Origin: Citrus sinensis
Taxonomy: Eukaryota; Streptophyta; Magnoliopsida; Sapindales; Rutaceae
Reading direction: 5' to 3'
DNA: 64,000 bases
Assembly (NCBI RefSeq): GCF_022201045.2
Contig: NC_068557.1
Location: 3,658,001 to 3,722,000, forward strand
Shown: piece by piece, positions 16,134 to 64,000 of the stretch
Layout of the letters: each line of letters starts with the position of its first letter
Position numbering within the stretch: position 1 is the first letter of the stretch
Made by a program: the position numbers and the translations under genes
Notes under the pieces: model-generated
The model's input: only the letters and a program-made list of their open reading frames with translations
Told to the model about the DNA's origin: nothing
Databases searched by the model: none

Positions 16134-19100
16134 TTAACAATCACATTGATCAATCAAATACATGCCTTGTTTCATAAGTTCTGATATGGAAATTTCTTCA
16201 ACAACAGGTTTTCCCAATGGTGATTTCCCTATGAGAAATTCTTGAGATACGCGTTGCATGGTAGGTCGAGACTTGGGTTTTGACTGCAAGCATGCAAATG
16301 CAACTATTGAAACAAGAATAATATCATGAACAACCTTTCGATCAAGTGGAGATGGCAGACGTTGGTCTAAAATATCGATCAACCTAATCTTTCGTTCAGA
16401 TGATGGCGATAAAGATGAAAGAAGATCTCCTGGATGACTTCCCATTAATACTTCTAGTGCCACCACTCCAAAGCTATAAACATCACATTTCTCTGTCACA
16501 GCCATGGTGTATGCAAGTTCTACAACAAAATAGAACCCATTGTAGAATTTCTTTGCACAAGCAAGAAACAAAATATATATATATTTGATTCACTGTTTCT
16601 GGAAGCTTCTGCAGCAAGATATTTAAGAGATATCTAATTGATTTTTAAATATGTTCAATGCATAAACATGGGTAAGAAGCATGAAAAGAAGAGCTAAAGG
16701 TTACCTGGAGCGATATATCCATATGTCCCGAGCACTAGAGTTCTGTTGGAGGAATCTGGATGCAGGAGCCTAGCCAAACCAAAATCAGCAACAAATGCCT
16801 CTAGGTTTGAATTAAGTAGAATGTTATTGCTGGATATGTCGCGGTGAACAATTGGTGGCTTGCAGTCATAATGCAAGTAAGACAAAGCATGAGCCATACT
16901 CTTTACAATGTCCACTCTCTTAGTCCAATCCAGCTCAACAACTTCAACGTCATTGCGTAACACACAGAACAAGCTTCCCCACTCCATGTACTCATAGATC
17001 AAAAACATGCACTGGTTATGCAAACAAAAACCATAAAGCTTCACTATATTACGATGCCGTATTTGGGATAGTAGACGAGCTTCAGTTTGAAAACTTTCCA
17101 GGAAGGCTAGCTCCTCTGTCTCTGAACGGTGAAGTTTCTTCAAAGCGACTACTCTTCCACTAGACAATTGTGCTCTGTAAACGCTGCCATAACCTCCGGT
17201 TCCAATGCAATATTTGATGTGGAAATCCTCTGTCGCTTGAATCATCTCTTCAAATGTAATTCTACCATCATAATCCCATATTGAGAACTCATCAGCGCAC
17301 TTTTTCATTTCTCGGGTATTAGGATTAATTTTCTCATCCATTCGTCTGTGGACAAACAAGATTCCAAAAATTAAGGCAAGGAATGCGACCATGGGAAGAA
17401 TAATTGTAACCAAGGGAGTAACGATCTTTTGGTTTTTTCCTTTGTTGCCTTTAAAATGTTGTGTTTGGGGTGGTGGTGCATTTTCTGAAATAACTGGGTT
17501 TTCTACCTCTAGATTGTTTTCTGACCATTTTAATCCGGGCACTCTAAAGACAGATTTGGGGATCACGCCGGAGAGGTTATTCTTGGAAACGTCCACTTCA
17601 GAAACGTTTGGAATTTTTCCGAGTTGAGAAGGTATGGTGCCATTTATGAAGTTATGGCTTAAATCAAGTTGTCTCAGATGTATAAGGTTGCCTATCTCCG
17701 ATGGAATGCTTCCGCTTAAACTGTTGTGGTTTACTGCCAAGTTCTGTAACTGCGAGCAATTCATGAGTTCTGGAGGAATGGAGCTGTTGAGCTGATTATG
17801 ACCAAGATTCAAAGAGGTGAGGTTGGTTAAATAACCAATTGTTGGAGGAATGGGTCCAATTAGGTTGTTCCTATCAAGAGACAGAGAATCAAGATACTTC
17901 AGATTTCCGACTTCTCGAGGCAGCAGACCACTTAGTTGGTTTGAAGAAAGATCTAGAGATGTTAAGTAGGTTAAATTTCCTATGGTCGGTGGAATTGGAC
18001 CATCAAGTCTGTTGTGAGACAAGCGCAACTCATCCAACAAGTTTAAAAAACCAATGGTCGAAGGAATAGGTCCAGTGAGATTGTTCCTATTTAGAAGCAG
18101 AGAATCAAGATTCTTCAGATTTCCAACTTCTTTAGGCAGTGGACCAACAAGATTGTTGTAAGCCAAGTACAAAGTACTTAACTGATTTAAATGATAAAGC
18201 GTTGAAGGAATAGGCCCAGTTAGATTGTTATTATCCAGAAACAGAGACACAAGATTCTTCAGATTTCCAACTTCTTGAGGCAGCCGACCACTAAGTTGAT
18301 TTAAAGAAAGGTCCAAATGTGTCAAGTTAGTTAAATTACCTATGCTCGATGGAATTAGACCATCCAGTTTGTTGCCCTGCAACCTCAGGTCATAAAGATC
18401 CTTCAAATTCCCAAATTCTAATGGGATAGAACCATTGAGAATGTTATAAGACAGATTCAGTTCGAGAAGATCCCTCAAACTCCCGATCTCTGAAGGGATA
18501 GTACCTATCATATATATATATATACATGCAAATGATTAATTAATGATAAATGAGCAATATTATCCAGTACCGATAGGAAATTATTGTATATGCAATGAAA
18601 TTATATATAATAGTTACCTGTAAGACGGTTATAGGACAGGTCAAGCACTTTGAGTCTTGAAAGAGCACCAATTTCTGATGGTATCCTTCCTAACGAAAAA
18701 AAGGAAAAAAAAAAAAATGTGTATGATTAATTAATGATAAATGAGCAATATTATCCAGTACGGCTGGGAAAATAATGTGTATGCAGTGAAATTGTATATA
18801 ATGGTTACCTGTAAGACTATTGTTGGACAGGACAAGCTTCTCGAGTTTTGAAAGAGCACCAATTTCTGATGGCATCCTTCCGGAAAGAAGAGTGCCCCAA
18901 ATTCTGAAAGTTACGAGGTTGGGAAAGCAAGTGAAGTTGAGTTGGCTAAGCTCTGCTCCGGTGAAATTATTATCCATCTCGTCAGAACTTATCTCGACTA
19001 TGCTTCCTGCTGAATTGCAAGTGATTCCCATCCACTTGCAATGATCTGAAGTATAGTTGGCCGTCGCCCGACTGCTATTCCACCAGCCTGAATTAAGTAA

Positions 19101-19238
19101 AGCTTCCCTTTCTAACTTTATGGCTGACGATGCAGCAGATGCTGTTACAACTGCATTATCAGTTATAACAGGAACAATAATACTGCTTATAAAAGTTATA
19201 ATGACCACCAATTTTGAAATGGAGGAATCCGGTGCCAT
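16134..19238 (-). CDS. LRR receptor-like kinase A (MIK2/At1g35710-like), 4 exons
   Basis: Predicted plasma-membrane receptor kinase of 895 residues. Exons on the minus strand: 19238-18809, 18689-18618, 18504-16705, 16519-16134; the sum, 2688 bp, is in frame and all junctions are GT-AG. Domains: signal peptide in the first 45 residues, LRR N-cap (WWNSS...CKWMGITC), about 16 LRRs of 24 residues, transmembrane helix at about 529-553, and kinase at about 600-870. The kinase has the glycine loop [29 protein letters not shown] and, across the last intron, APE. It is an RD kinase with all catalytic residues. The start at MAPDSS is chosen because a TATA box (revcomp TATAAAAG, 19283-19290) lies about 45 bp upstream, which leaves little room for the in-frame ATG 13 codons earlier. 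Exon 2 is a single 72-bp LRR cassette. In Arabidopsis MIK2 senses SCOOP peptides; ligand transfer to this gene is not justified. Confidence 0.9.
18618..18689 (-). other. 72-bp single-LRR exon cassette of kinase A
   Basis: Codes one complete 24-residue LRR ([20 protein letters not shown] then NRLT) between phase-1 introns, so adding or removing it keeps the frame. It matches the cassettes of kinases C and D. Confidence 0.85.
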
Positions 19239-22823: not shown

Positions 22824-25739
22824 TTAACAATCACATTGATCAATCAAATACATGCCTTGTTTCATAAGTTCTGATATGGAAATTTCTTCAACAACAGGTT
22901 TTCCCAATGGTGATTTCCCTGTGAGAAATTCTTGAGATACGCGTTGCATGGTAGGTCGAGACTTGGGTTTTGACTGCAAGCATGCAAATGCAACTATTGA
23001 AACAAGAATAATATCGTGAACAACCTTTCGATCAAGTGGAGATGGCAGACGTTGGTCTAAAATATCGATCAACCTAATCTTTCGTTCAGATGATGACGAT
23101 AAAGATGAAAGAAGATCTCCTGGATGACTTCCCATTAATACTTCTAGTGCCACCACTCCAAAGCTATAAACATCACATTTCTCTGTCACAGCCATGGTGT
23201 ATGCAAGTTCTACAACAAAATAGAACCCATTGTAGAATTTCTTTGCACAAGCAAGAAAAAAAATATATATATATTTGATTCACTGTTTCTGGAAGCTTCT
23301 GCAGCAAGATATTTAAGAGATATCTAATTGATTTTTAAATATGTTCAATGCATAAACATGGGTAAGAAGCATGAAAAGAAGAGCTAAAGGTTACCTGGAG
23401 CGATATATCCATATGTCCCGAGCACTAGAGTTCTGTTGGAGGAATCTGGATGCAGGAGCCTAGCCAAACCAAAATCAGCAACAAATGCCTCTAGGTTTGA
23501 ATTAAGTAGAATGTTATTGCTGGATATGTCTCGGTGAACAATTGGTGGCTTGCAGTCATAATGCAAGTAAGACAAAGCATGAGCCATACTCTTTACAATG
23601 TCCACTCTCTTAGTCCAATCCAGCTCAACAACTTCAACGTCATTGCGTAACACACAGAACAAGCTTCCCCACTCCATGTACTCATAGATCAAAAACATGC
23701 ACTGGTTATGCAAACAAAAACCATAAAGCTTCACTATATTACGATGCCGTATTTGGGATAGTAGACGAGCTTCAGTTTGGAAACTTTCCAGGAAAGCTGG
23801 CTCCTCTGTCTCCGAACGGTGAAGTTTCTTCAAAGCGACTACTTTTCCACTGGACAATTGTGCTCTGTAAACACTGCCATAACCTCCGGTTCCAATGCAA
23901 TATTTGATGTGGAAATCCTCTGTCGCTTGAATCATCTCTTCAAATGTAATTCTACCATCATAATTCCATATGGAGAACTCATTAGCCCCCTCGGTCATTT
24001 CTCGGGTATTAGGATTAAATTTCTTATCCTTTCGTCTATGGACAAACAAGATACCAAAAATTAAGATTGCGAAAATAAATGCCACCATAGCAAGAATGAT
24101 TGTGACCAAGCGAGTGACGATCTTTCGCTGCTTCCCTTTGTTGCCTTTGAACGGTTTTGCTTGGGGTGGCGGTGCATTTTCTGAACTAGTTGAGTTTTCT
24201 AACTCTAGATTATTTTCTGACACTATCAATTTGGGAATTATTCTGACAGATGCAGGGACAACGCCGGAGAGGTTATTCTTGGAAAGATCCACGGCAGAAA
24301 TATTTGGAATATATCCTAGTTGTGAAGGTATCGTGCCATTTATGAAGTTATGGCTTAAATCAAGTTGTCTCAGATGTGTAAGGTTGCCTATCTCCGGCGG
24401 AACGATTCCGCTTAAAGTGTTGTGGCTTAATACCAAGTTCTGTAACTGCGAGCAATTCATGAGTTCTGGAGGAATGGAGCTGCTGAGCTGATTGTAACCA
24501 AGATTCAAAGAGGTGAGGTTGGTTAAATAACCAATTGTTGGAGGAATGGATCCAATTAGATTGTTCCCATCAAGGGAGAGAGAATCAAGATACTTCAGAT
24601 TTCCTACTTCTCGAGGCAGCAGACCACTAAGTTGGTTTGAAGAAAGATCCAGAGATGTTAAGTTGGTTAAATTTCCTATGGTCGGTGGAATTGGACTATC
24701 AAGTCTGTTGTGAGACAAGTCCAACTTTCCCCCCAAGTTTAAATAACCAATTGTCGAAGGAATAGGTCCAGTGAGGCTGTTTCTATTTAGAAGCAGAGAA
24801 TCAAGATTCTTCATATTTCCAACTTCTTTAGGCAGTGGACCAACAAGATTGTTGTAAGCCAAGTACAAATTACTTAACTGATTTAAATGATAAAGCGTTG
24901 AAGGAATAGGCCCAGTTAGATTGTTATTATCCAGAAACAGAGACAGAAGATTCTTCAGATTTCCAACTTCTTGAGGCAGCCGACCACTAAGTTGGTTTAA
25001 AGAAAGGTCCAAATGTGTCAAGTTAGTTAAATTACCTATGCTCGATGGAATTAGACCATCCAGTTTGTTACCCCGCAACCTCAGTGCATCAAGATCCTTC
25101 AAATTCCCAAATTCTAATGGGATAGAACCATTGAGAATGTTATTAGACAGATCCAGTTCAACGAGATTCCTCAAACTACCGATCTCCGCGGGGATAGTAC
25201 CTATCGTGTGTATATATATGCATATGATTAATTAACGATAAATGAGCAATATTATCCAGTACCGATAGGAAATTATTGTATATGCAATGAAATTATATAT
25301 AATGGTTACCTGTAAGACTGTTATAGGGCAGGGCAAGCTCCTCGAGTTTTGAAAGAGCACCAATTTCTGATGGTATCCTTCCGGAAAGAAGAGTGTACGG
25401 AATTATGATACTTTCGAGGTTGGGAAAGCAAGTGAAGTTGAGTTGGCTAAGCTCTGCTGCGTTGCCATTATTATCCATCTCGTCAGAACTTATCTCAGCT
25501 ATGCTTCCTGCTGAATTGCAAGTGATTCCCATCCACTTGCAATGATCTGAAGTATAGTTGGCCGTCGCCCGACTGCTATTCCACCAGCCTGAATTAACTA
25601 AAGCTTCCCTTTCTAACTTTATGGCTGACGATGCGGCAGATGCTGTTACAACTGCATTATCAGTTATAACAGGAACAATAATACTGCTTATAAAAGTTAT
25701 AATGACCACCAAGTTTGAAATGGAGGAATCCGGTGCCAT
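22824..25739 (-). CDS. LRR receptor-like kinase B (MIK2-like), 3 exons, no LRR cassette exon
   Basis: Predicted receptor kinase of 873 residues. Exons on the minus strand: 25739-25310, 25200-23395, 23209-22824 (2622 bp, in frame). Exon 1 ends in LTG and splices directly to [12 protein letters not shown] of the large exon through a 109-bp intron, so the 72-bp cassette seen in A, C and D is absent. Layout is otherwise as in A: signal peptide, LRR N-cap, LRRs, a transmembrane segment two residues longer ([19 protein letters not shown]) and a complete RD kinase ([32 protein letters not shown]). The ectodomain carries B-specific changes ([20 protein letters not shown]). Exon 4 and the kinase are nearly identical to A, which suggests recent duplication or gene conversion. 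TATAAAAG (revcomp) lies about 45 bp upstream of the ATG. Confidence 0.9.
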
Positions 25740-33771: not shown

Positions 33772-34302
33772 CAATTAGATCCCAGGGAACATTAACCCAA
33801 TTTACTGCTTATTGTAGACCTCTTTGTTTACATGAATTAATGTTTAATAGCCTTTAGGATCTCAAGCTTGACCCTTACAACTACATATGAGTTCATTTAA
33901 TTAATAATTTGTACGTATTAGCAGCTAGTGAAGGAGAAAATGCCCGTGACCAGTGCATTAGTTTTAAAGAAATCCGGAGACAAAGAGTTGTTCTGATTAT
34001 TTTATAATTTTTTTTTTTGCACATGACACACTATTCAAGACAATGTCCATGTGGTGTGAAGGCCAAAATCCCCCGTGAACCTGGCAATTATTGTCTTTTT
34101 TAGCATTTTAAAAAAATCAGTTTGTATTTAAATTACTATTTGATCGATTAAAATTTGAATAACTTTACAGCTACCCACGAATTTTTTAACCATAATTCCC
34201 AGCTTCCCTTTTATATATATATCGGCATCAGCTGATCAGCATGAATTAAGAGTTCATAACCAAACTGAAATAGATATCCAAAGTTTAGAGTTACTGAGAA
34301 AT
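33772..34302. other. Upstream region of lipid-transfer-like copy 2
   Basis: Shared with 59669-59811 plus 60783-61159, and from about 33974 with 47813-48135. It contains a TATA-like TTATATATATAT at about 34211-34222. The paralogue at 59.8 kb carries a hAT insertion that this copy lacks (GTATTAGCAGCTAGTG, about 33916). Confidence 0.75.
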
Positions 34303-34806
34303 ATGAGTTCTAGGATTTATTTTATGCTCGTCGCGATATTTACTGTCGCTGGAGTTTTTCAATTTTCCGGCGCAGTTTCCGGCGCACAACATTGTGGAAT
34401 GAATACAAATGTTCTTGGCCAGCATGTATCACAATGTGAGAAATATGTGTTGAAATCGGGGCCGAAGATTCGGCCATCTCCTGGTTGTTGTGCGGTTGTG
34501 AAGAAGGTTGTCGCCAAATCTCGAAGGAAAATTTTCCATTTTTCCAGTAAAACATATTCTATAATTTACGGTAATTATCTATTAGTAATGCTAATGGTTT
34601 TTTACACTAAACAATATTTTCAGACCCAAGTCATACACAATGCTAAAAATAAAGTAAATATTTTTTCCATTCCTACAGAAAACATAAAAATTACCAAGTT
34701 CATCAATACTTATATCATTTATCATCATCCGAAGCTATACTTGCATCATCAATTGTCGATCTACAAAAGAGAAATCAAAGATGTTAAAAATATTTCTAAT
34801 AATTAA
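34303..34806 (+). pseudogene. Truncated lipid-transfer-like gene (copy 2), chimeric reading frame
   Basis: The first 208 bp (34303-34510) match the intact copies at 48136 and 61160, including the signal peptide and the first four cysteines (C, C, CC). At 34510/34511 (AAGAAGGTTG|TCGCC) the sequence jumps to the intergenic repeat CGCCAAATCTC-AAGGAAAATTTTCC found at about 21098 and 53540. The open frame runs on to 34806 as non-homologous residues. The CXC motif and last two cysteines are lost, so the fold cannot form. One surviving difference is FSGAVSGA for FSGQVSGA. This is a recombination breakpoint between two duplicons rather than gradual decay. Confidence 0.85.
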
Positions 34807-38029: not shown

Positions 38030-41000
38030 TTAACAATCACATCGATCAATCAAATACAACCCTTGGTTTATAAGTTCTGATATGGAAATATCTTGAACAG
38101 CAGGATTTCCCAATGGTGATTTCCCTGTGAGAAATTCTTGAGATATGCGCTGCATTGTAGGTCGAGACTTGGGTTTTGACTGCAAGCATGCAAATGCGAC
38201 AATTGAAACAAGAATAATATCCTGAACAACCTTTCGATCAACCGGAGGTGGCAGACGCTGGTCTAAAACATCGATCAACATAATCTTTCCATCAGAAGAT
38301 GACGATAAAGATGAAAGAAGATCTGCTGGATGACTTCCCATTAATACTTCTAGTGCCACTACTCCAAAGCTATAAACATCACATTTCTCTGTCACGGCCA
38401 TAGTGTAGGCAAGTTCTACAACAAAATTGAACCCATTGTAAAATTTCTTTGCACAAGTAAATAAAAGTAAGAAAGAAACATTTGATTCTCTGTTTCTGAA
38501 AGCTTCTGCACCTTGATATTTAAGAGGCATGTGATCAATTTTTAAATATGTTCAATGCATAAACATGGGTAAGAAGCATGAAAAGAAGAGCTAAAGGTTA
38601 CCTGGAGCGATATATCCATATGTCCCGAGCACTAGAGTTCTGTTGGAGGAATCTGGATGCAGGAGCCTAGCCAAACCAAAATCAGCAACAAATGCCTCTA
38701 GGTTTGAATTAAGTAGAATGTTATTGCTGGATATGTCGCGGTGGACAATTGGTGGCTTGCAGTCATAATGCAAGTAAGACAAAGCATGAGCCATACTCTT
38801 TACAATGTTCACTCTCTTAGTCCAATCCAGCTCAACAGCTTCAACGTCATTGCGTAACACACAGAACAAGCTTCCCCGCTCCATGTACTCATAGATCAAA
38901 AACATGCACTTGTAATGCAAACAAGAACCATAAAGCTTCACTATATTACGATGCCGTATTTGGGATAGTAGACGAGCTTCAGTTTGAAAACTTTCTAGGA
39001 AGGCTAGCTCCTCTGTCTCTGAACGGTGAAGTTTCTTCAAAGCGACTACTCTTCCACTAGACAATTGTGCTCTGTAAACGCTGCCATAACCTCCTGTTCC
39101 AATGCAATATTTGATGTGGAAATCCTCTGTCGCTTGAATCATCTCTTCAAATGTAATTCTACCATCATAATTCCATATGGAGAACTCATCAGCGCACTTG
39201 GCCATTTCTCGGGTATTAGGATTAAATTTCTCATCCCTTCGTCTGTGGACAAACAAGATTCCAAAAATTAAGGCAAGGAATGCGACCATGGGAAGAATAA
39301 TTGTAACCAAGGGAGTAATGATCTTTTGGTGTTTTCCTTTGTTGCCTTTAAAATGTTGTGCTTGGGGTGGTGGTGCATTTTCTGAAATAATTGGGTTTCC
39401 TACCTCTAGATTGTTTTCTGACCATTTTAATCCGGGCACTCTTAAGACAGATTTGGGGATAACGCCGGAGAGGTTATTCTTGGAAACGTCCACTTCAGAA
39501 ACGTTTGTAATTTTTCCGAGTTGAGAAGGTATGGTGCCATTTATAAAGTTATGACTTAAATCAAGTTGTCTCAGATGTATAAGGTTGCCGATCTCCGATG
39601 GAATGCTTCCGCTTAAACTGTTGTGGCTTAATACCAAGTTCAGTAACTGCGAGCAATTCATGAGTTCTGGAGGAATGGAGCTGTTGAGCTGATTATAACC
39701 AAGATTCAAAGAGGTGAGGTTGGTTAAATAACCAATTGTTGGAGGAATGGGTCCAATTAGGTTGTTCCCATTGAGAGACAGAGAAGCAAGATACTTCAGA
39801 TTTCTAACTTCTCGAGGCAGCAGACCACTCAGTTGGTTTGAAGAAAGATCTAGAGATGTTAAGTTGGTTAAATTTCCTATGGTCGGTGGAATTGGACCAT
39901 CAAGTCTGTTGTGAGACAAGTCCAACTCATCCAACAAGTTTAAATAACCAATGGTCGAAGGAATAGATCCAGTGAGATTGTTCCTATTCAGAAGCAAACG
40001 ATCAAGATTCTTCAGATTTCCAACTTCTTTGGACAGTGGACCAACAAGATTGTTGTAAGCCAAGTACAAAATTCTTAACTGATTTAAATGATAAAGTGTC
40101 GAAGGAATAGGTCCAGTGAGGCTGTTTCTATTTAGAAGCAGAGTCTTAAGATTCTTCATATTTCCAACTTCTCTAGGCAGTGGACCAACAAGATTGTTGT
40201 AAGCCAAGAACAAAACTCTTAACTGATTTAAATGATAAAGTGTTGAAGGAATAGGCCCAGTTAAATTGTTATTATCCAGAAACAGAGAGTCAAGATTCTT
40301 CAGATTTCCAACTTCTTGAGGCAGCCGACCACTAAGTTGGTTTAAAGAAAGGTTCAAACTTGTCAAGTTAGTTAAATTACCTATGCTCGATGGAATTAGA
40401 CCATCCAGTTTGTTACCCTGCAACCTCAGTTCATCAAGATCCTTCAAATTCCCAAATTCTAATGGGATAGAACCATTGAGAATGTTATTAGTCAGATCCA
40501 GTTTGAGAAGATTCCTCAAACTCCCGATCTCCGCGGGGATAGTACCTATCGTGTGTATATATATGCATATGATTAATTAACCATAAATGAGCAATATTAT
40601 CCAGTACCGATAGGAAATTATTGTATATGCAATGAAATTATATATAATGGTTACCTGTAAGACTGTTATAGGACAGGTCAAGCTCCTCGAGTTTTGAAAG
40701 AGCACCAATTTCTGATGGTATCCTTCCTAACGAAAAAAAGGAAAAAAAATAATGTGTATGATTAATTAAGGATAAATGAGCAATATTATCCAGTACGGCT
40801 AGGAAAATAATGTGTATGCATTGAAATTATATATAATGGTTACCTGTAAGACTGTTATAGGACAGGACAAGCTCCTCGAGTTTCGAAAGAGCACCAATTT
40901 CTGATGGTATCATTCCTGAAGACAAAAAGGAAAAAAAAAAATATATATATATATATAATGATAAATGAGCAATATTATCCAGTACGGCTAGGAAAATAAT

Positions 41001-42244
41001 TGTATGCTGTGAAATTATATATAATGGTTACCGGTAAGATGGTTACGAGACAGGTGAAGCACTTGGAGTTTTGAAAGAGCACCAATTTCTGATGGCATCC
41101 TTCCTAAAGAAAAAAAGGAAAAAAAATAATGTGTATGATTAATTAATGATAAATGAGCAAATATTATCCAGTACGGCTAGGAAAATAATGTGTATGCATT
41201 GAAATTATATATAATGGTTACCTGTAAGATTGTTATAGGACAAGACAAGCTCCTCGAGTTTCGAAAGAGCACCAATTTCTGATGGTATCATACCTGAAGA
41301 CAAAAAGGAAAAAAAACAATATATATATATATATATGATTAATTAATGATAAATGAGCAATATTATCCAGTACGGCTAGGAAAATAATGTGTATGCATTG
41401 AAATTATATATAATGGTTACCTGTAAGACTGTTATAGGACAGGACAAGCTCCTCGAGTTTTGAAAGAGCACCAATTTCTGATGGCATCCTTCCTGAAGAA
41501 AAAAAGGAAAAAAAAATAATGTGTATGATTAATTAATGATAAATGAGCAAATATTATCCAGTACGGCTAGGAAAATAATGTGTATGCATTGAAATTATAT
41601 ATAATGGTTACCTGTAAGATTGTTATAGGACAGGACAAGCTCCTCGAGTTTCGAAAGAGCACCAATTTCTGATGGTATCATTCCTGAAGACAAAAGGAAA
41701 AAAACAATATATATATATATATATATATATGATTAATTAATGATAAATGAGCAATATTATCCAGTACGGCTAGGAAAATAATGTGTATGCAGTGAAATTA
41801 TATATAATGGTTACCGGTAAGATGGTTACGAGACAGGTCAAGCACTTGGAGTTTTGAAAGAGCACCAATTTCTGATGGTATCCTTCCGGAAAGAAGAGTG
41901 CCCCAAATTCTGAAAGTTACGAGGTTGGGAAAGCAAGTGAAGTTGAGTTGGCTAAGCTCTGCTCCAGTGAAATTATTATCCATCTCTATAGAGCTTATCT
42001 CAACTATGCTTCCTGCTGAATTGCAAGTGATTCCCATCCACTTGCAATGATCTGAAGTATAGTTGGCCGTCGCCCGACTGCTATTCCACCAGCCTGAATT
42101 AACTAAAGCTTCCCTTTCTAACTTTATGGCTGACGATGCAGCAAATGCTGTTACAACTGCATTATCAGTTATAACAGGAACAATAATACTGCTTATAAAA
42201 GTTATAATGACCACCAAGTTTGAAATGGAGGAATCCGGTGCCAT
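38030..42244 (-). CDS. LRR receptor-like kinase C (MIK2-like) with six LRR cassette exons, 9 exons
   Basis: Predicted receptor kinase of 1063 residues, the longest of the cluster. Exons on the minus strand: 42244-41815, 41683-41612, 41492-41421, 41293-41222, 41103-41032, 40915-40844, 40726-40655, 40545-38602, 38415-38030 (3192 bp, in frame; every junction GT-AG). The six 72-bp exons each add one 24-residue LRR. The large exon is 144 bp longer than in A through an internal two-LRR duplication (39950-40237). The transmembrane segment and kinase are intact: [32 protein letters not shown]. The last exon differs from A/B at several sites (VLDQRLPPPVDRKV). The exon model rests on splice consensus and phase only; use of all six cassettes in one transcript is predicted, not shown. 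Confidence 0.85.
39950..40237 (-). repeat. Internal 144-bp tandem duplication coding two LRRs (kinase C)
   Basis: Two adjacent in-frame 48-residue units, 40237-40094 and 40093-39950, both start YHLNQLR and share [15 protein letters not shown] or REVGN, and LLLNRN. Kinases A, B and D have one such unit, so this is a gain in C. Confidence 0.9.
40655..41683 (-). repeat. Tandem array of six exon+intron units, each coding one LRR
   Basis: Each unit is about 188-200 bp: a 72-bp exon plus an intron that starts GTAACCATTATATATAA and ends near CTTTTT(T)-TTC-TTAG or CTTTTTGTCTTCAG. Exon sequence alternates in transcript order: GMIPSEIG (41612), GRMPSEIG (41421), GMIPSEIG (41222), GRMPSEIG (41032), GMIPSEIG (40844), GRIPSEIG (40655). 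Introns alternate as well: those before most GM-type exons carry an (AT)n tract. This points to growth by a two-unit, about 390-bp repeat. Confidence 0.88.
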
Positions 42245-47812: not shown

Positions 47813-48044
47813 GAGACAAAGAGTTGTTCTGATTATTTTCTAATTTTTTTTTTCACATGAGACACCATTCAAGACAATGTCCATGTGGTGTGAATGCCAA
47901 AATCCCCCGTGAACCTGGCAATTATTGTCTTTTTTAGCATTTTAATATAATCAGTTGTATTTAAATTACTATTTGATCGATTAAAATTTGAATAATTTTA
48001 CAGCTACCCACGTATTTTTTAACCATAATTCCCAGCTTCCCTTC

Positions 48045-48052
48045 TATATATA
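48045..48052 (+). promoter_or_regulatory. TATA box of lipid-transfer-like copy 3
   Basis: TATATATA lies about 85 bp before the ATG at 48136 and is conserved in position in the copies at 34211-34222 and 61067-61077. It explains why the in-frame ATG at 48052, which overlaps it, is not taken as the start. Confidence 0.6.
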
Positions 48053-48135
48053 TGTCGGCATCAGCTGATCAGCATGAATTAAGAGTTCATAACCAAACTG
48101 AAATAGATATCCAAAGTTTAGTGTTACTGAGAAAT

Positions 48136-48471
48136 ATGAGTTCTAGGATTTATTTTATGCTCGTCGCGATATTTACTGTCGCTGCAGTTTTTCAATTTTC
48201 CGGCCAAGTTTCCGGCGCACAACATTGTGGAATGAATACAAATGTTCTGGGCCAGCTTGTATCACAATGTGAGAAATATGTGTTGAAATCGGGGCCGAAG
48301 ATTCGGCCATCTCCTGGTTGTTGTGCGGTTGTGAAGAAGGTTGATGTGCCATGTGTGTGCAAGTTTGTAACAAAGCAGATTGAAGAAATTGTAAGCATTG
48401 AGAAGATGGTTTATGTGGCCAGGTCATGTGGCATAAAGATTTCTACCGGGACAAAATGTGGAAGTAAGTAA
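48136..48471 (+). CDS. Lipid-transfer-like 8-cysteine protein (copy 3)
   Basis: Predicted secreted protein of 111 residues. The signal peptide ends near FSGQVSGA|QHCG. The mature part has all eight cysteines in LTP order: QHC, QC, CC, PCVC, SC, KC. The gene-proximal relative at 2120 splices after CGS into a second exon coding FTIPPARK; here the donor-like GGAA|GTAAGT is kept, but no matching acceptor and second exon follows before the kinase duplicon joins at about 48660. The frame therefore reads through to CGSK and stops. It differs from the 61160 copy by only a handful of residues (R/K4, V/T10, A/G16, K/T near CVC, T/A near the end). Likely role is extracellular lipid binding; tissue and ligand are unknown. 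Confidence 0.85.
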   Translation: MSSRIYFMLVAIFTVAAVFQFSGQVSGAQHCGMNTNVLGQLVSQCEKYVLKSGPKIRPSPGCCAVVKKVDVPCVCKFVTKQIEEIVSIEKMVYVARSCGIKISTGTKCGSK

Positions 48472-49411
48472 ATAACATTCCTCGTGCAATTACCAATAAA
48501 TTCTATTAAGAATGATAATGCACATCTCAAATAGTATCTCGACTTTATTTCTCATAAGTGATGCGACATTTATCTGTAAAATAATAATATAAACTAATAA
48601 GTAATTTTAGAGGTTCATGAAACTGGCATTCAATTGATGATCATATATCATCTCAGTATTTTCATATTCTCAAAGTTCTTCACATCTTTTTATTTCAAAT
48701 TGAAAGATAATAAACGCACTCTAGTTATCTTTCAATTAATGAATGAAACATTAATTCTCATTGGATAATCAACATATACTTGTTTTAGAGTCCTCAGGTG
48801 GACGACTTTTGAGGTTTTGTGTCCTTTTTTGTTATACTGCTGGTTCTTGAGGTAAATAAATCCAGGATTCCTGAAACTGAGCATTCAATTTTCGTGTCTG
48901 AAATTTTCAATATCCAAATTCACTCATGCAATACAACTACACTATTTTAAATCAATTATATGGTTTCAGTTTCAGATTTTGTATTTCCAGCATAAATAAT
49001 CATGCAAGCTTTTGATTCCCAAAAGACCATTGCCCCCTCTCCCCGCATTTTCAAATCATCCATAACTTTTCTGCAATGTTCAGCCTGTGGAAAGGTAATT
49101 TTATCAGTGCAAGTGCTTGCATTGTTCATTTCTTCAGATAGCCATTTGCTGCGACTAAAAATTCATGCTGTGTTCACTGATGAAGGCAACTAGGAGTCAA
49201 CGTCTATTTAGATCAGGAAAATGACGTGTGTGGTGTGAATTTACACATGAAATTCAATTGGCATATTTGTCACTTGTCAGGCTCAATGGACCCCTTTCAA
49301 ATTTCACTTTAGAATATTTATTTATTTTTTATCTAAAGATAAGGATTTAATTACACAAAATTCAGCCTCACGAAAGTCATACAAAATGCGATCAGTGAAA
49401 TACATTCAGGA
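48472..49411. other. Intergenic between lipid-transfer copy 3 and kinase D
   Basis: To about 48655 it matches 61496-61680; from there it is the downstream part of the kinase duplicon (copy D), matching 14930 onward without the L15-like relic. No gene was seen. Confidence 0.75.
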
Positions 49412-49522
49412 TTAACAATCGCATTGATCAATCAAATACATCCCTTGGTTTATAAGTTCTGATCTGGAAATTTCTTGAACAACAGATTTTCCCAGCGGTG
49501 ATTTCCTTGCGAGAAAATAACA

Positions 49523-49698
49523 GCAACTAGCTATTTAAGAGATATTTTATTAATTATAATTGACATTTAGTGTATAAAATTTCTTACAAGTAAATAACAG
49601 TTAGAAAAAGAAACATTCGATTCACTGTTTCTGATAGCTACTGCAACTAGCTATTTAAGAGATATTTTATTAATTATAATTGACATTTAGTGTATAAA
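49523..49698. repeat. 56-bp direct repeat at the kinase D deletion
   Basis: GCAACTAGCTATTTAAGAGA and its continuation to TGTATAAA occur at 49523-49578 and again at 49643-49698 (spacing 120 bp). The shorter word AAATAACAG also occurs at both 49515 and 49592. The first copy abuts the truncated exon, so the repeat was made by, or together with, the deletion. Confidence 0.85.
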
Positions 49699-51651
49699 CA
49701 TGAGAAAGAATCATGAAAAGAAGAGCTAAAGGTTACCTGGAGCAATATATCCATATGTCCCGGCCACTACAGTTCTGTTGGAGGAATCTGGTTGCAGGAG
49801 CCTGGCCAAACCAAAATCAGCAACAAATGCCCCTAGGTTTGAGTTAAGTAGAATGTTATTGCTGGATATGTCGCGGTGAACAATTGATGGCTTGCAGTCA
49901 TAATGCAGGTAAGACAAAGCATGAGCCATACACTTTACAATGTTCACTCTCTTAGTCCAATCAAACTCAACTGCTTCAACATCATTGCGTAACACACAGA
50001 ACAAGCTTCCCCTCTCCATGTACTCATAGATCAAAAACATGCACTTGTTGTGCAAACAAAAACCATAAAGCTTCACTATATTACGATGCCGTATTTGGGA
50101 GAGTAGACGAGCTTCAGTTTGGAAACTTTCCAGGAAAGCTGGCTCCTCTGTCTCCGAACGGTGAAGTTTCTTCAAAGCGACTACTTTTCCACTGGACAAT
50201 TGTGCTCTGTAAACACTGCCATAACCTCCGGTTCCAATGCAATATTTGATGTGGAAATCCTCTGTCGCTTGAATCATCTCTTCAAATGTAATTCTACCAT
50301 CATAATTCCATATGGAGAACTCATTAGCCCCCTCGGTCATTTCTCGGGTATTAGGATTAAATTTCTTATCCTTTCGTCTATGGACAAACAAGATACCAAA
50401 AATTAAGATTGCGAAAATAAATGCCACCATAGCAAGAATGATTGTGACCAAGCGAGTGACGATCTTTTGCTGCTTCCCTTTGTTGCCCTTAAACTGTTTT
50501 GCTTGGGGTGGTGGTGCATTTTCTGAACTAATTGAGTTTTCTAACCCTAGATTATTTTCTGACACTTTCAATTTGTGAATTCTTTTGACAGATGCAGGGA
50601 CAACGCCGGAGAGGTTATTCTTGGAAAGATTCACGGCAGAAATGTTTGGAATATTTCCCAGTTGTGAAGATATCGTGCCATTTATGAAGTTATGGCTTAA
50701 ATCAAGTTGTCTCAGATGTGTAAGGTTGCCTATCTCCGACGGAGAGATTCCGCTTAAAGTGTTGTGGCTTAATACCAAGTTCTGTAACTGCGAGCAATTC
50801 ATGAGTTCTGGAGGAATGGAGCTGCTGAGCTGATTATAACCAAGATTCAAAGAGGTGAGGTTGGTTAAATAACCAATTGTTGGAGGAATGGGTCCAATTA
50901 GATTGTTCCCGTCAAGAGACAGAGAATCAAGATACTTCAGATTTCCAACTTCCCGAGGCAGCCGACCACTAAGTTGGTTTGAAGAAAGAACCAGAGATGT
51001 TAAGTCGGTTAAATTTCCAATGGACGATGGAATTGGACCATCAAGTCTGTTGTGAGACAAGTCCAAAATTTCCAACAAGTTTAAATAACCAATGGTCGAA
51101 GGAATAGGTCCAGTGAGATTGTTCCTATTTAGAAGCAGAGAATCAAGATTCTTCAGATTTCCAACTTCTTTAGGCAGTGGACCAACAAGATTGTTGTAAG
51201 CCAGGTACAAAGTACTTGAGTGATTTAAATGATAAAACGTTGAAGGAATACGTCCAGTTAGATTGTTATTATCTAGATACAGATACACAAGATTCTTCAG
51301 ATTTCCAACTTCTTGAGGCAGCCGACCACTAATTTGGTTTAAAGAAAGGTTCAAACTTGTCAAGTTAGTTAAATTACCTACGCTCGATGGAATTAGACCA
51401 TCCAGTTTGTTACCCTGCAACCTCAGTTCATCAAGATCCTTCAAATTCCCAAATTCTAATGGGATAGAACCATTGAGAATGTTATTAGTTAGATCCAGTT
51501 TGAGAAGATTCCTCAAACTCCCGATCTCCGCGGGGATAGTACCTATCGTGTGTATATATATGCATATGATTAATTAACGATAAATGAGCAATATTATCCA
51601 GTACGGCTAGGAAAATAATGTGTATGCAGTGAAATTATATATAATGGTTAC

Positions 51652-51723
51652 CGGTAAGATGGTTACGAGACAGGTGAAGCACTTGGAGTTTTGAAAGAGC
51701 ACCAATTTCTGATGGCATCCTTC
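51652..51723 (-). other. 72-bp single-LRR exon cassette of kinase D
   Basis: Codes [20 protein letters not shown] then NHLT between phase-1 introns. It is base-identical to the cassette at 41032-41103 in kinase C. Confidence 0.85.
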
Positions 51724-52271
51724 CTGAAGAAAAAAAGGAAAAAAAATAATGTGTATGATTAATTAATGATAAATGAGCAAATATTATCCAGTACGGCTAG
51801 GAAAATAATGTGTATGCAGTGAAATTATATATAATGGTTACCTGGAAGACTGTTATCGTACAGGTCAAGGTCCTCGAGTTTTGAAAGAGCACCAATTTCT
51901 GATGGTATCCTTCCGGAAAGAAGAGTGCCCCAAATTCTGAAAGTTACGAGGTTGGGAAAGCAAGTGAAGTTGAGTTGGCTAAGCTCTGCTCCGGTGAAAT
52001 TATTTTCCATCTCTATAGAGCTTATCTCGACTATGCTTCCTGCTGAATTGCAAGTGATTCCCATCCACTTGCAATGATCTGAAGTATAGTTGGCCGTCGC
52101 CCGACTGCTATTCCACCAGCCTGAATTAACTAAAGCTTCCCTTTCTAACTGTAAGGCTGACGATGCATCAGATGCTGTTAGAACTGCATTATCAGTTATA
52201 ACAGGAACAATAATACTGCTTATAAAAGTTATAATGACCACCAAGTTTGAAATGGAGGAATCCGGTGCCAT

Positions 52272-60782: not shown

Positions 60783-61159
60783 CTACTGAAGTAGAAAATG
60801 CCTGTGACTAGTGCATTAGTTTCTTTAAAATCCGGAGACAAAGAGTTGTTCTGAGTATTTTATAATTTTTTTTTTCACATGAGACACCATTCAAGACAAT
60901 GTCCATGTGGTGTGAAGGCCAAAATGCCCGTGAACCAGTCAATTTTTGTCTTTTTCAGCATTTTAATATAATCACTTTGTATTTAAATTACTATTTGATC
61001 GATTAAAATTTCAATAATTTTACAGCTAACCACGTATTTTTTAACCATAATTCCCAGCTTCCCTTCTATATATATAAGTCGGCATCAGCTGATCAGCATG
61101 AATTAAGAGTTCATAACCAAACTGAAATAGATATCCAAAGTTTAGCGTTACTGAGAAAT
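60783..61159 (+). promoter_or_regulatory. Upstream region of lipid-transfer-like copy 4
   Basis: Matches 33926-34302 and 47813-48135. The TATA-like TATATATATAA is at about 61067-61077, roughly 85 bp before the ATG. The conserved block includes GTCGGCATCAGCTGATCAGC just after the TATA box in all three copies. The hAT copy ends only about 385 bp upstream of the start codon. Confidence 0.6.
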
Positions 61160-61495
61160 ATGAGTTCTAAGATTTATTTTATGCTCACCGCGATATTTAC
61201 TGTCGCTGGAGTTTTTCAATTTTCCGGCCAAGTTTCCGGCGCACAACATTGTGGAATGAATACAAATGTTCTTGGCCAGCTTGTATCACAATGTGAGAAA
61301 TATGTGTTGAAATCGGGGCCGAAGATTCGGCCATCTCCTGGTTGTTGTGCGGTTGTCAAGAAGGTTGATGTGCCATGCGTGTGCACGTTTGTTACAAAGC
61401 AGATTGAAGAAATTGTAAGCATTGAGAAGATGGTTTATGTGGCCAGGTCATGTGGCATAAAGATTTCTGCCGGGACAAAATGTGGAAGTAAGTAA
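61160..61495 (+). CDS. Lipid-transfer-like 8-cysteine protein (copy 4)
   Basis: Predicted secreted protein of 111 residues, nearly identical to the copy at 48136. The signal peptide (MSSKIYFMLTAIFTVAGVFQ) ends near VSGA. All eight cysteines are in LTP order. One change lies between PCVC and the next helix (CVCTF for CVCKF). Like copy 3 it ends CGSK by reading into a donor-like GTAAGT, and no second exon was found downstream. Two near-identical intact copies and one truncated copy in 27 kb indicate recent duplication. A role in extracellular lipid binding or defence is inferred from the family only. Confidence 0.85.
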   Translation: MSSKIYFMLTAIFTVAGVFQFSGQVSGAQHCGMNTNVLGQLVSQCEKYVLKSGPKIRPSPGCCAVVKKVDVPCVCTFVTKQIEEIVSIEKMVYVARSCGIKISAGTKCGSK

Positions 61496-62414: not shown

Positions 62415-64000
62415 TTAACAATCGCATTGATCAACCAAATACATCCCTTGGTTTATAAGTTCTGATATGGAAATTTCTTGAACAACAGATTTTCCCAGCG
62501 GTGATTTCCTTGCGAGAAATTCTTGAGATATGCGTTGCATTGTAGGTCGAGCCTTGGGTTTTGACTGCAAGCATGCAAATGCGACTGTTGAAACAAGAAT
62601 AATATCATGAACAACCCTTCGATCAACTGGAAATGGGAGACGTTGGTCTAAAACATCGATCAACCTAATCTTCCGACCAGATGATGACGATAAGGATGAA
62701 AGAAGATCTGTTGGATGACTTCCCATTAATACTTCTAGTGCCACTACGCCAAAGCTATAAACATCACATTTCTCTGTCACAGCCATAGTGTAGGCAAGTT
62801 CTGCAACAAAATAGAACCCATTGTAGAATTTCATTGCACAAGTAAACAACACAAAAAAAAAAAAGAATAATCATTTGATTATCTGTTTCTGAAAGCTTCT
62901 GCAGCTAGATATTTAAGAGATATCTGATTGATTTTTAAATACAATCAATGTATAAACATGAGTAAGAAGCATGAAAAGAATAGATAAAGGTTACCTGGAG
63001 CAATATATCCATATGTTCCCACCACTAGAGTTCTGTTGGAGGAATCTGGATGCAGGAGCCTAGCCAAACCAAAATCAGCAACGAATGCCTCTAGGTTTGA
63101 GTTAAGTAGAATGTTATTGCTTGATATGTCGCGGTGAACAATGGATGGCTTGCAGTCATAATGCAGGTAAGACAAAGCATGAGCCATGCTCTTTACAATG
63201 TTCACTCTCTTTGTCCAATCCAACTCAACTGCTTCAACATCATTGCGTAACACACAAAACAAGCTTCCCCTCTCCATGTACTCATAGATCAAAAACATGC
63301 ACTTGTTGTGCAAACAGAAACCATAAAGCTTCACTATATTACGATGCCGTATTTGGGACAGTAGACGAGCTTCGGTTTGGAAACTTTCCAGGAAAGCTGG
63401 CTCCTCTGTCTCTGAACGGTGAAGTTTCTTCAAAGCAACTAGTTTTCCACTAGACAATTGCGCTCTGTAAACGCTGCCATAACCTCCGGTTCCAATGCAA
63501 TATTTGATGTGGAAATCCTCTGTCGCTTCAATCATCTCTTCAAATGTAATTCGACCATCATAATTCCATATGGAGAACTCATTAGCCCCCTCGGTCATTT
63601 CTCGGGTATTAGGATTAAATTTCTTATCCTTTCGTCTATGGACAAACAAGATACCAAAAATTAAGATTGCGAAAACAAATGCCACCATAGCAAGAATGAT
63701 TGTGACCAACCGAATGACGATCTTTCGCTGCTTCCCTTTGTTGCCTTTGAACAGTGTTGCTTGGGGTGGCGGTGCATTTTCTGAACTAGTTGAGTTTTCT
63801 AACTCTAGATTATTTTCTGACACTATCAATTTGGGAATTCTTCTGACAGATGCAGGGATAACGCCGGAGAGGTTATTCTTGGAAAGATCCACGGCAGAAA
63901 TGTTTGGAATTTTTCCGAGTTGTGAAGGTATCGTGCCATTTATGAAGTTACGGCTTAAATCAAGTTGTCTAAAAAATATAAGGTTTCCTATCTCCGATGG
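62415..64000 (-). CDS. LRR receptor-like kinase E (MIK2-like), cut by the window edge
   Basis: The last exon is 62800-62415 (386 bp, complete) and the large exon runs from 62995 past 64000. Visible protein: the end of the LRRs (from [16 protein letters not shown]), juxtamembrane spacer, transmembrane helix ([19 protein letters not shown]) and a complete RD kinase ([32 protein letters not shown]). It is closest to B and D in the ectodomain-spacer part ([18 protein letters not shown]). It has its own changes in the last exon (RLPFPVDRRV, SKPKARP, FLARKSPLGK). This last exon is the intact counterpart of the one deleted in D. The number of LRR cassette exons cannot be seen. Confidence 0.9.

Follow-up and report, generated by a model that had tools for sequence, protein, structure and literature searches.

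LRR kinases of rice contain 72-nt exons that each encode one leucine-rich repeat (LRR), with phase-2 introns that split the first Leu of the xxLxLxx motif at a highly conserved position, and exon duplication and shuffling have been proposed as the source of their tandem LRRs (PMC3050792). In the ciliate Tetrahymena, thousands of LRR genes carry arrays of 90-bp exons separated by phase-2 introns, for which unequal crossing over has been invoked and retrotransposon involvement proposed, and some of these arrays are fused to a protein kinase domain (PMC6564038). Human NLRs such as NLRP3 have modular LRR exons that could be skipped in frame, and the skipping of one LRR exon has been shown (PMC6642158). 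The principle is already known: one-LRR exons from rice, and expanding LRR-exon arrays from Tetrahymena. Here we describe an array of near-identical one-LRR exons in kinase C (38030-42244, minus strand), one of five tandem kinase genes, A to E, that all lie on the minus strand of the Citrus sinensis chromosome 2 assembly. The window analysed is a stretch of 64,000 nt (NC_068557.1, positions 3,658,001 to 3,722,000 of the forward strand), and plain positions are those of this window.

All five genes share a 430-nt exon 1 and a large exon of 1800-1944 nt that encodes the bulk of the kinase and of the LRRs, together with the transmembrane segment. A 386-nt last exon follows in A, B, C and E, and every modelled intron is phase 1. 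In kinase C, exon 1 (41815..42244) encodes the signal region, the N-terminal cap and the first LRRs, the last of them at 41886-41815, and it is open from the ATG to a phase-1 end at GTAACC. Between exon 1 and the 1944-nt large exon we found the six 72-nt exons (40655-41683) that a previous sequence-only reading had claimed, which we call cassettes: C1 (41612..41683), C2 (41421..41492), C3 (41222..41293), C4 (41032..41103), C5 (40844..40915) and C6 (40655..40726). Each is preceded by AG, followed by GTAACC and encodes one 24-residue LRR, and all seven flanking introns are phase 1 and 109-131 nt long, interrupting the Gly codon before xIP. By the second residue, the cassettes alternate between a GM type (C1, C3, C5) and a GR type (C2, C4, C6) along the array, also as claimed. 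The six introns 5' of the terminal one have a pyrimidine-rich acceptor (i-type); the terminal intron (40546..40654) has a TA/AC-rich acceptor and was assigned from the alignment and its informative columns to a second kind (t-type).

The large exon (38602..40545), which encodes the rest of the LRRs, the transmembrane segment and the greater part of the kinase, is an open frame identical to the deposited protein P0001 of the same contig, and the last exon (38030..38415), encoding the kinase C-lobe, is open to the stop. Spliced in this way, kinase C is open for 1063 codons and its product matches P0001 at 1063/1063 residues. Read-through of the array introns meets a stop after GNHYI in seven of seven cases, and the open reading frame (ORF) list held no unspliced frame of at least 150 aa crossing the array; the first intron of kinase E has no stop in the read-through frame. 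A scan of 74 kb (the window plus L036) for an AG|72|GT arrangement holding an LRR in the cassette phase returned 14 cases on the minus strand and none on the plus strand, namely the nine cassettes and, from each of the five genes, the LRR that opens the large exon. As the sequence-only reading had it, A and D have one cassette each (18618..18689 and 51652..51723, both AG|72|GT and phase 1-1 like those of C) and B has none, its single t-type intron (25201..25309) being 99.1% identical to the C terminal intron. The fifth gene, E, has one at 64987-64916, outside the window, giving counts of 1/0/6/1/1 for A/B/C/D/E.

Set beside rice (PMC3050792), the citrus cassettes are alike in being 72-nt exons of one LRR with symmetric introns, but their introns are phase 1 and lie at the Gly before xIP rather than splitting a Leu in phase 2, and, unlike in rice, a near-identical intron belongs to the unit and the number of units varies among close paralogues. 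The likeness to Tetrahymena (PMC6564038) lies in tandem LRR exons of equal length, a single intron phase, fusion to a kinase and variable number (six in C, one in A, D and E, none in B, and one to four in the chromosome 6 genes described below). The citrus array appears to work like the Tetrahymena system without being a member of it, because its exons are 72 nt and its introns phase 1. Modular exons that could be skipped in frame are shared with human NLRs, but skipping of a single cassette has no support among the deposited citrus isoforms found, and the tandem near-identical units of citrus have no counterpart described in the available passages of PMC6642158. Nor is the array a variable-number tandem repeat inside one exon, with which the sequence-only reading had compared it while noting the introns between its units, as each of its seven introns closes the read-through frame. 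A search of open-licence PMC literature, by title and start of abstract, turned up no recent one-LRR exon array that we recognised in a plant receptor kinase, PMC3050792 being the nearest. Within that literature, the new points are the phase, the place within the repeat, the near-identical introns, the apparent exchange among paralogues and the two apparent starts in one plant genome.

The tandem genes carry several footprints that point to exchange. The C4 exon matches the D cassette perfectly (72/72, 100%) and the exon-1 LRR of C at 97.2%, but reaches only 84.7% identity with C2 and with C6, differing from each at 11/72 sites. The intron that follows the D cassette (51543..51651) changes once along its length, from i-type states at the first five informative columns to t-type states at the next twelve, although adjoining acceptor columns are not independent of one another, and it ends in a TA-rich sort of acceptor. 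At columns 101 and 116, both among the five, outgroup introns on chromosomes 1 and 5 have the t-type base and D the i-type one, which makes the i-type bases that D shares at these columns derived. This intron thus appears to be a recombinant of the two intron types. We also found that the nearest partner shifts along the genes. With the last LRR removed, exon 1 of A is nearest that of E, at a synonymous divergence (dS) of 0.013 (A-D 0.019), and exon 1 of C is nearest that of D (0.026); for the large exon, A is nearest C (0.050) and B nearest D (0.081), with A-E at 0.168. Exon 1 and the large exon of the same gene therefore have different nearest relatives, and the genes are mosaics. Together with the cassette counts and with differences among deposited proteins of other Citrus, these footprints bear out the proposals that the unit count is frame-neutral and that ectodomain length changes in a repeat-driven manner, and they support, as far as sequence comparison goes, growth, loss and transfer of cassettes by unequal or ectopic exchange.

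Within kinase C, Tandem Repeats Finder (TRF) reported a period of 189 bp (6.9 copies, 87% matches, score 1935) and one of 390 bp (3.5 copies, 91% matches, score 2230), so the predicted higher-order period of 390 bp is present. GM exons follow introns 0, 2 and 4, and GR exons follow introns 1, 3 and 5, and when the order of units was permuted the odd/even split came first among the 10 possible 3+3 splits, for exons and introns alike. Because the 72 of 720 orders that do as well, for exons and again for introns, are the minimum attainable, the support that this lends to a dimer pattern is statistically weak. The proposal that the array grew by a two-exon unit of about 390 bp holds, then, in that the alternation is the best available split, and fails at unit 4, which seems to have been replaced or converted and makes the array something other than a simple tripled dimer. 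We read the array as a two-unit pattern that would have been overwritten by exchange or conversion; introns C1 and C3 are a single substitution apart. The large exon of C contains a further repeat (39954..40331, TRF) with a period of 144 bp, or two LRRs, in 2.6 copies, and exceeds the large exons of A, B, D and E by 138-144 nt. As this in-exon repeat is found in C only, the ectodomain of C appears to have been enlarged by two different routes.

A second array lies on chromosome 6, where five MIK2-like genes (L068-L072, C6:11.41-11.60 Mb) have an exon 1 that is 45-47% identical to that of C. Their unit is 183 bp, a 72-nt exon with an intron that is usually 111 nt long, and TRF counted 3.1, 4.0, 2.1, 3.1 and 3.0 copies of the 183-bp repeat in L068 to L072, respectively. 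We placed four units 5' of the large exon in L068, three in L069, one in L070 and two each in L071 and L072, such that four of the five genes have at least two; the in-frame donor of L071 exon 1 is GC. All seven cassettes of L069, L071 and L072 (L068 and L070 were left out of this comparison) match the first LRR of the large exon at 59-65/72 and the exon-1 LRR at 35-39/72, the latter counted from the exon-1 LRR of L072, as that of L071 was taken 4 nt late and its per-column profile is misaligned. In the window cluster the resemblance is the reverse: nine of nine cassettes match exon-1 LRRs at 64-70/72 (best of five genes) and the first LRRs of the large exons at only 39-44/72. Because the two sets of cassettes resemble opposite flanking LRRs, the chromosome 6 array looks independent in origin, at the corresponding intron, and descent of both from one old array is unlikely. 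They may still share a very old ancestral array, if later overwriting has erased the original units. A blastn comparison of one array intron from each chromosome gave six short matches only, the best (E 0.005) covering 19 bases on the opposite strand.

Several further units were noted in the course of this comparison. The 183-bp unit has another match at G000:C6:11515604-11516167, with 86% identity over the whole 367-base query, which is probably part of a sixth gene with an array. A relic unit lacking its AG lies 5' of the L069 gene, at position 2501 of the L069 reverse complement. Short-open-frame hits on C7 and C9 raised the possibility of a third array, but the one 1.8-kb stretch of C7 that was read (L073, G000:C7:17229901-17231700) belongs to an LRR gene with a 144-nt exon of two LRRs, in phase 1 as in the cassettes, and has no LRR-sized tandem repeat. 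Because L073 has such an intron, phase-1 introns at LRR boundaries do not seem to be confined to MIK2-like genes.

The direction of change was approached through outgroups. A genome search with exon 1 gave 112 matches, of which 30 exon-1 loci were scanned to 900 nt downstream, the 82 weaker matches lying outside the scan. A readable exon-1 end with a downstream LRR acceptor or array was present at 24 of the 30; L046, L063, L065 and L067 were left out because they had no exon-1 end, and L057 and L060 because they had no downstream LRR acceptor. The 24 comprise eight loci in the two array clusters and 16 outgroup loci, on chr1, chr2 (2.6 Mb), chr4, chr5, chr6 (25.2 Mb) and chr8. None of the 16 has a cassette within the 900 nt scanned, and the introns of the chr1 and chr5 outgroups have TA-rich acceptors resembling the terminal intron of the window cluster; for both reasons the cassettes are probably derived rather than ancestral. 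The count of ALSKL/ALSRL repeats rises with cassette number, from one in B and the chr1 and chr5 outgroups to two in A, D and E and seven in C. Single-cassette genes were considered as the ancestral stage, but the recombinant intron of D argues that exchange produced at least part of its present state; A and E may lie nearer to the first cassette stage.

We think it likely that cassettes are gained, lost and traded by unequal exchange, that the arrays on chromosomes 2 and 6 arose separately, and that the outcome is a longer receptor solenoid. The intron after exon 1 sits at a repeat boundary, where it interrupts, in phase 1, the conserved Gly codon of LxG-xIP; any in-register copy of a flanking LRR with the intron would therefore yield a 72-nt exon and keep the frame. 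The starting point would be the no-cassette state, as in the outgroup genes, and the first cassette of the window cluster would be a copy of the last LRR of exon 1. In C, unequal exchange would then have raised the cassettes to six, some of the steps adding two units at once; units would later have been moved and deleted through exchange or conversion, both between cassettes and between tandem paralogues. Once spliced, the product would be a receptor with a longer LRR solenoid, in which the ligand surface may be re-spaced or widened. The chromosome 6 cluster would have followed the same course separately, the copied repeat there being the LRR that opens the large exon.

An array of symmetric exons could instead be mainly a splicing device, in which individual cassettes are included or skipped to give receptors of varied length from one gene. 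Every cassette is phase 1-1, such that any subset keeps the frame, and two of the three deposited isoforms of locus C among the best hits lack all six: the 1063-aa form has all of them, and P0122 (746 aa) and P0121 (687 aa) have none. In these two, C exon 1 is joined to acceptors inside the large exon, with first exonic bases at 40026 and 39849 (minus strand) and predicted lengths that match exactly. Matching internal acceptor sites are used in A and E models (P0125; P0124, and P0123 from another contig), and P0028, an E-like model, uses an AG inside the cassette. However, the acceptors at 40026 and 39849 remove several more LRRs along with the cassettes and break the LRR register, no isoform with one to five cassettes was found among the best hits of the deposited-protein searches, the donors are alike (GTAACC), and the acceptor of the large exon looks, by eye, no stronger than those of the cassettes. 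For the skipping of individual cassettes, the other route that the sequence-only reading had offered, these models give no support, and we consider a mainly splicing role unlikely.

The deposited proteins of other citrus differ in cassette number. P0016 (C. x aurantiifolia) has one GM cassette and P0017 (also C. x aurantiifolia) none; P0081 (huyou) has two cassette-like LRRs, its model start falling inside the first; and in P0128, a D-like clementine model, exon 1 is joined directly to the large exon. These counts come from gene models that each represent a 90%-identity cluster, the other members of which (six in that of P0001) were unseen. Also improbable, in our judgement, is that the units are old, kept alike by gene conversion and static in copy number now. 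Conversion alone could account for the identity of C4 with the D cassette and for the mosaic genes, but by itself it leaves cassette number unchanged: it would not give zero, one and six units in close paralogues, or outgroups without any, and it sits poorly with introns C1 and C3 being so nearly identical and with an intron in D that joins two types.

It is very improbable that the array was expanded or mis-joined in assembly. If the assembly is the published phased, chromosome-level Valencia assembly, its source is PacBio continuous long reads (PMC9832951), a read type prone to errors in short repeats, but the array of about 1.3 kb is short against a corrected-read N50 of 42 kb (PMC9832951), its units differ by substitutions and indels, and array-like units occur in the chromosome 6 genes too. 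That intron copies were placed at existing LRR boundaries, without any repeats being added, is the least probable reading: G|GT does occur in the cassette phase after the first LRR of all five large exons, and the chromosome 6 cassettes do resemble that LRR, but LRR number rises with the cassettes and successive exons, not introns alone, are near-identical.

Several observations weigh against the history of exchange that we favour. The exon-1 LRR and the intron of B are closest to their C6 counterparts (97.2% and 99.1%, respectively), and for this reason the no-cassette state of B may be a loss rather than ancestral. C4 breaks the simple dimer order, and a TA insertion, which depends on the alignment, is common to introns 0 and 2 but absent from 4, as a simple dimer would not predict. 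Some array genes look damaged: one L068 unit has no AG and is followed by GC, the single unit of L070 contains a stop, L072 has downstream stops, and D lacks most of the kinase C-lobe. The Valencia annotation was made with BRAKER and Mikado from 80 RNA-seq sets (PMC9832951); the gene models may be partly ab initio, and the array is known here from sequence and models. Finally, the model leaves the source of the pyrimidine-rich i-type acceptor unexplained. The coding sequence 5' of the last LRR of exon 1 was compared by eye as a candidate source and was not convincing.

The protein is consistent throughout with an LRR receptor kinase. P0001 carries precomputed kinase and LRR Pfam accessions, and kinase C, one of the tandem MIK2-like LRR receptor kinase genes and itself intact, encodes an N-terminal cap, an LRR ectodomain, a transmembrane segment and a Ser/Thr kinase with HRD and DFG in the translation. 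The C ectodomain aligns to MIK2 chains in the PDB in one stretch, GSO1 and FLS2 chains outscore them over several stretches, and deposited relatives are named as MIK2. Arabidopsis MIK2 (MDIS1-interacting receptor-like kinase 2), the SCOOP receptor, shares an LRR ectodomain and kinase with the citrus genes, but according to the available passages of PMC11331138 it has no homologue or orthologue outside Brassicales; 'MIK2-like' is here a family name only. By strict cores, C has 21 LRRs and A, B, D and E have 12-14. When 14 units (nine cassettes and the exon-1 LRRs of five genes) are compared, the 24-residue repeat varies at positions 2-4, 12, 14, 15, 17, 19, 20, 22 and 24. Positions 14, 15, 17, 19 and 20 are the x residues of xxLxLxx, on the concave face that often meets ligands. 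The ratio of nonsynonymous to synonymous differences per site, (Nd/Ns)/(Sd/Ss), summed over pairs of seven C units, is 0.64, with too few sites for a claim of selection. An AlphaFold2 model of P0001, made from a 14-row alignment, predicts a single continuous LRR solenoid with strands every 24 residues through the array; the predicted local distance difference test (pLDDT) is 89-97 in blocks over residues 141-290, with a mean of 80.1, and the predicted template modelling score (pTM) is 0.56.

The other kinase genes of the cluster are A (16134-19238), B (22824-25739), D (49737-52271, as far as modelled) and E (62415-65535, with coordinates continued past the window end; 62415..64000 lies within it). 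The large exon of D ends in ATTGCTCCAG|GTAACC, as in the other kinases, and is followed by sequence without most of the last exon, including a repeated intron piece at 49200-49750; D looks truncated. Three similar small secreted cysteine-containing proteins from the ORF list (34159-34806, 47992-48471 and 61007-61495), judged by eye to be like lipid transfer proteins, lie on the plus strand, opposite to kinases C, D and E and alternating with them. The cluster may have expanded in blocks of one such protein gene and one kinase gene.

The gain and loss of whole repeats in LRR receptors is usually inferred from old, diverged genes. In this citrus genome, two clusters preserve recognisable units, intervening introns and recombinant junctions; the plant is a crop, and the gene family is related to peptide-signal receptors. 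A boundary intron combined with unequal exchange would give frame-neutral changes in length, which can be tested by counting cassettes in citrus haplotypes. More tentatively, and with somewhat less than even confidence, we propose that the phase-1 intron at the LRR boundary is a generator of receptor length that has acted in at least two citrus clusters, independently and starting from opposite flanking LRRs, and is still acting, with cassettes passing between neighbouring genes as well as being gained and lost. If so, cassette number would be expected to vary within cultivated citrus and might help to tune how ligands are recognised.

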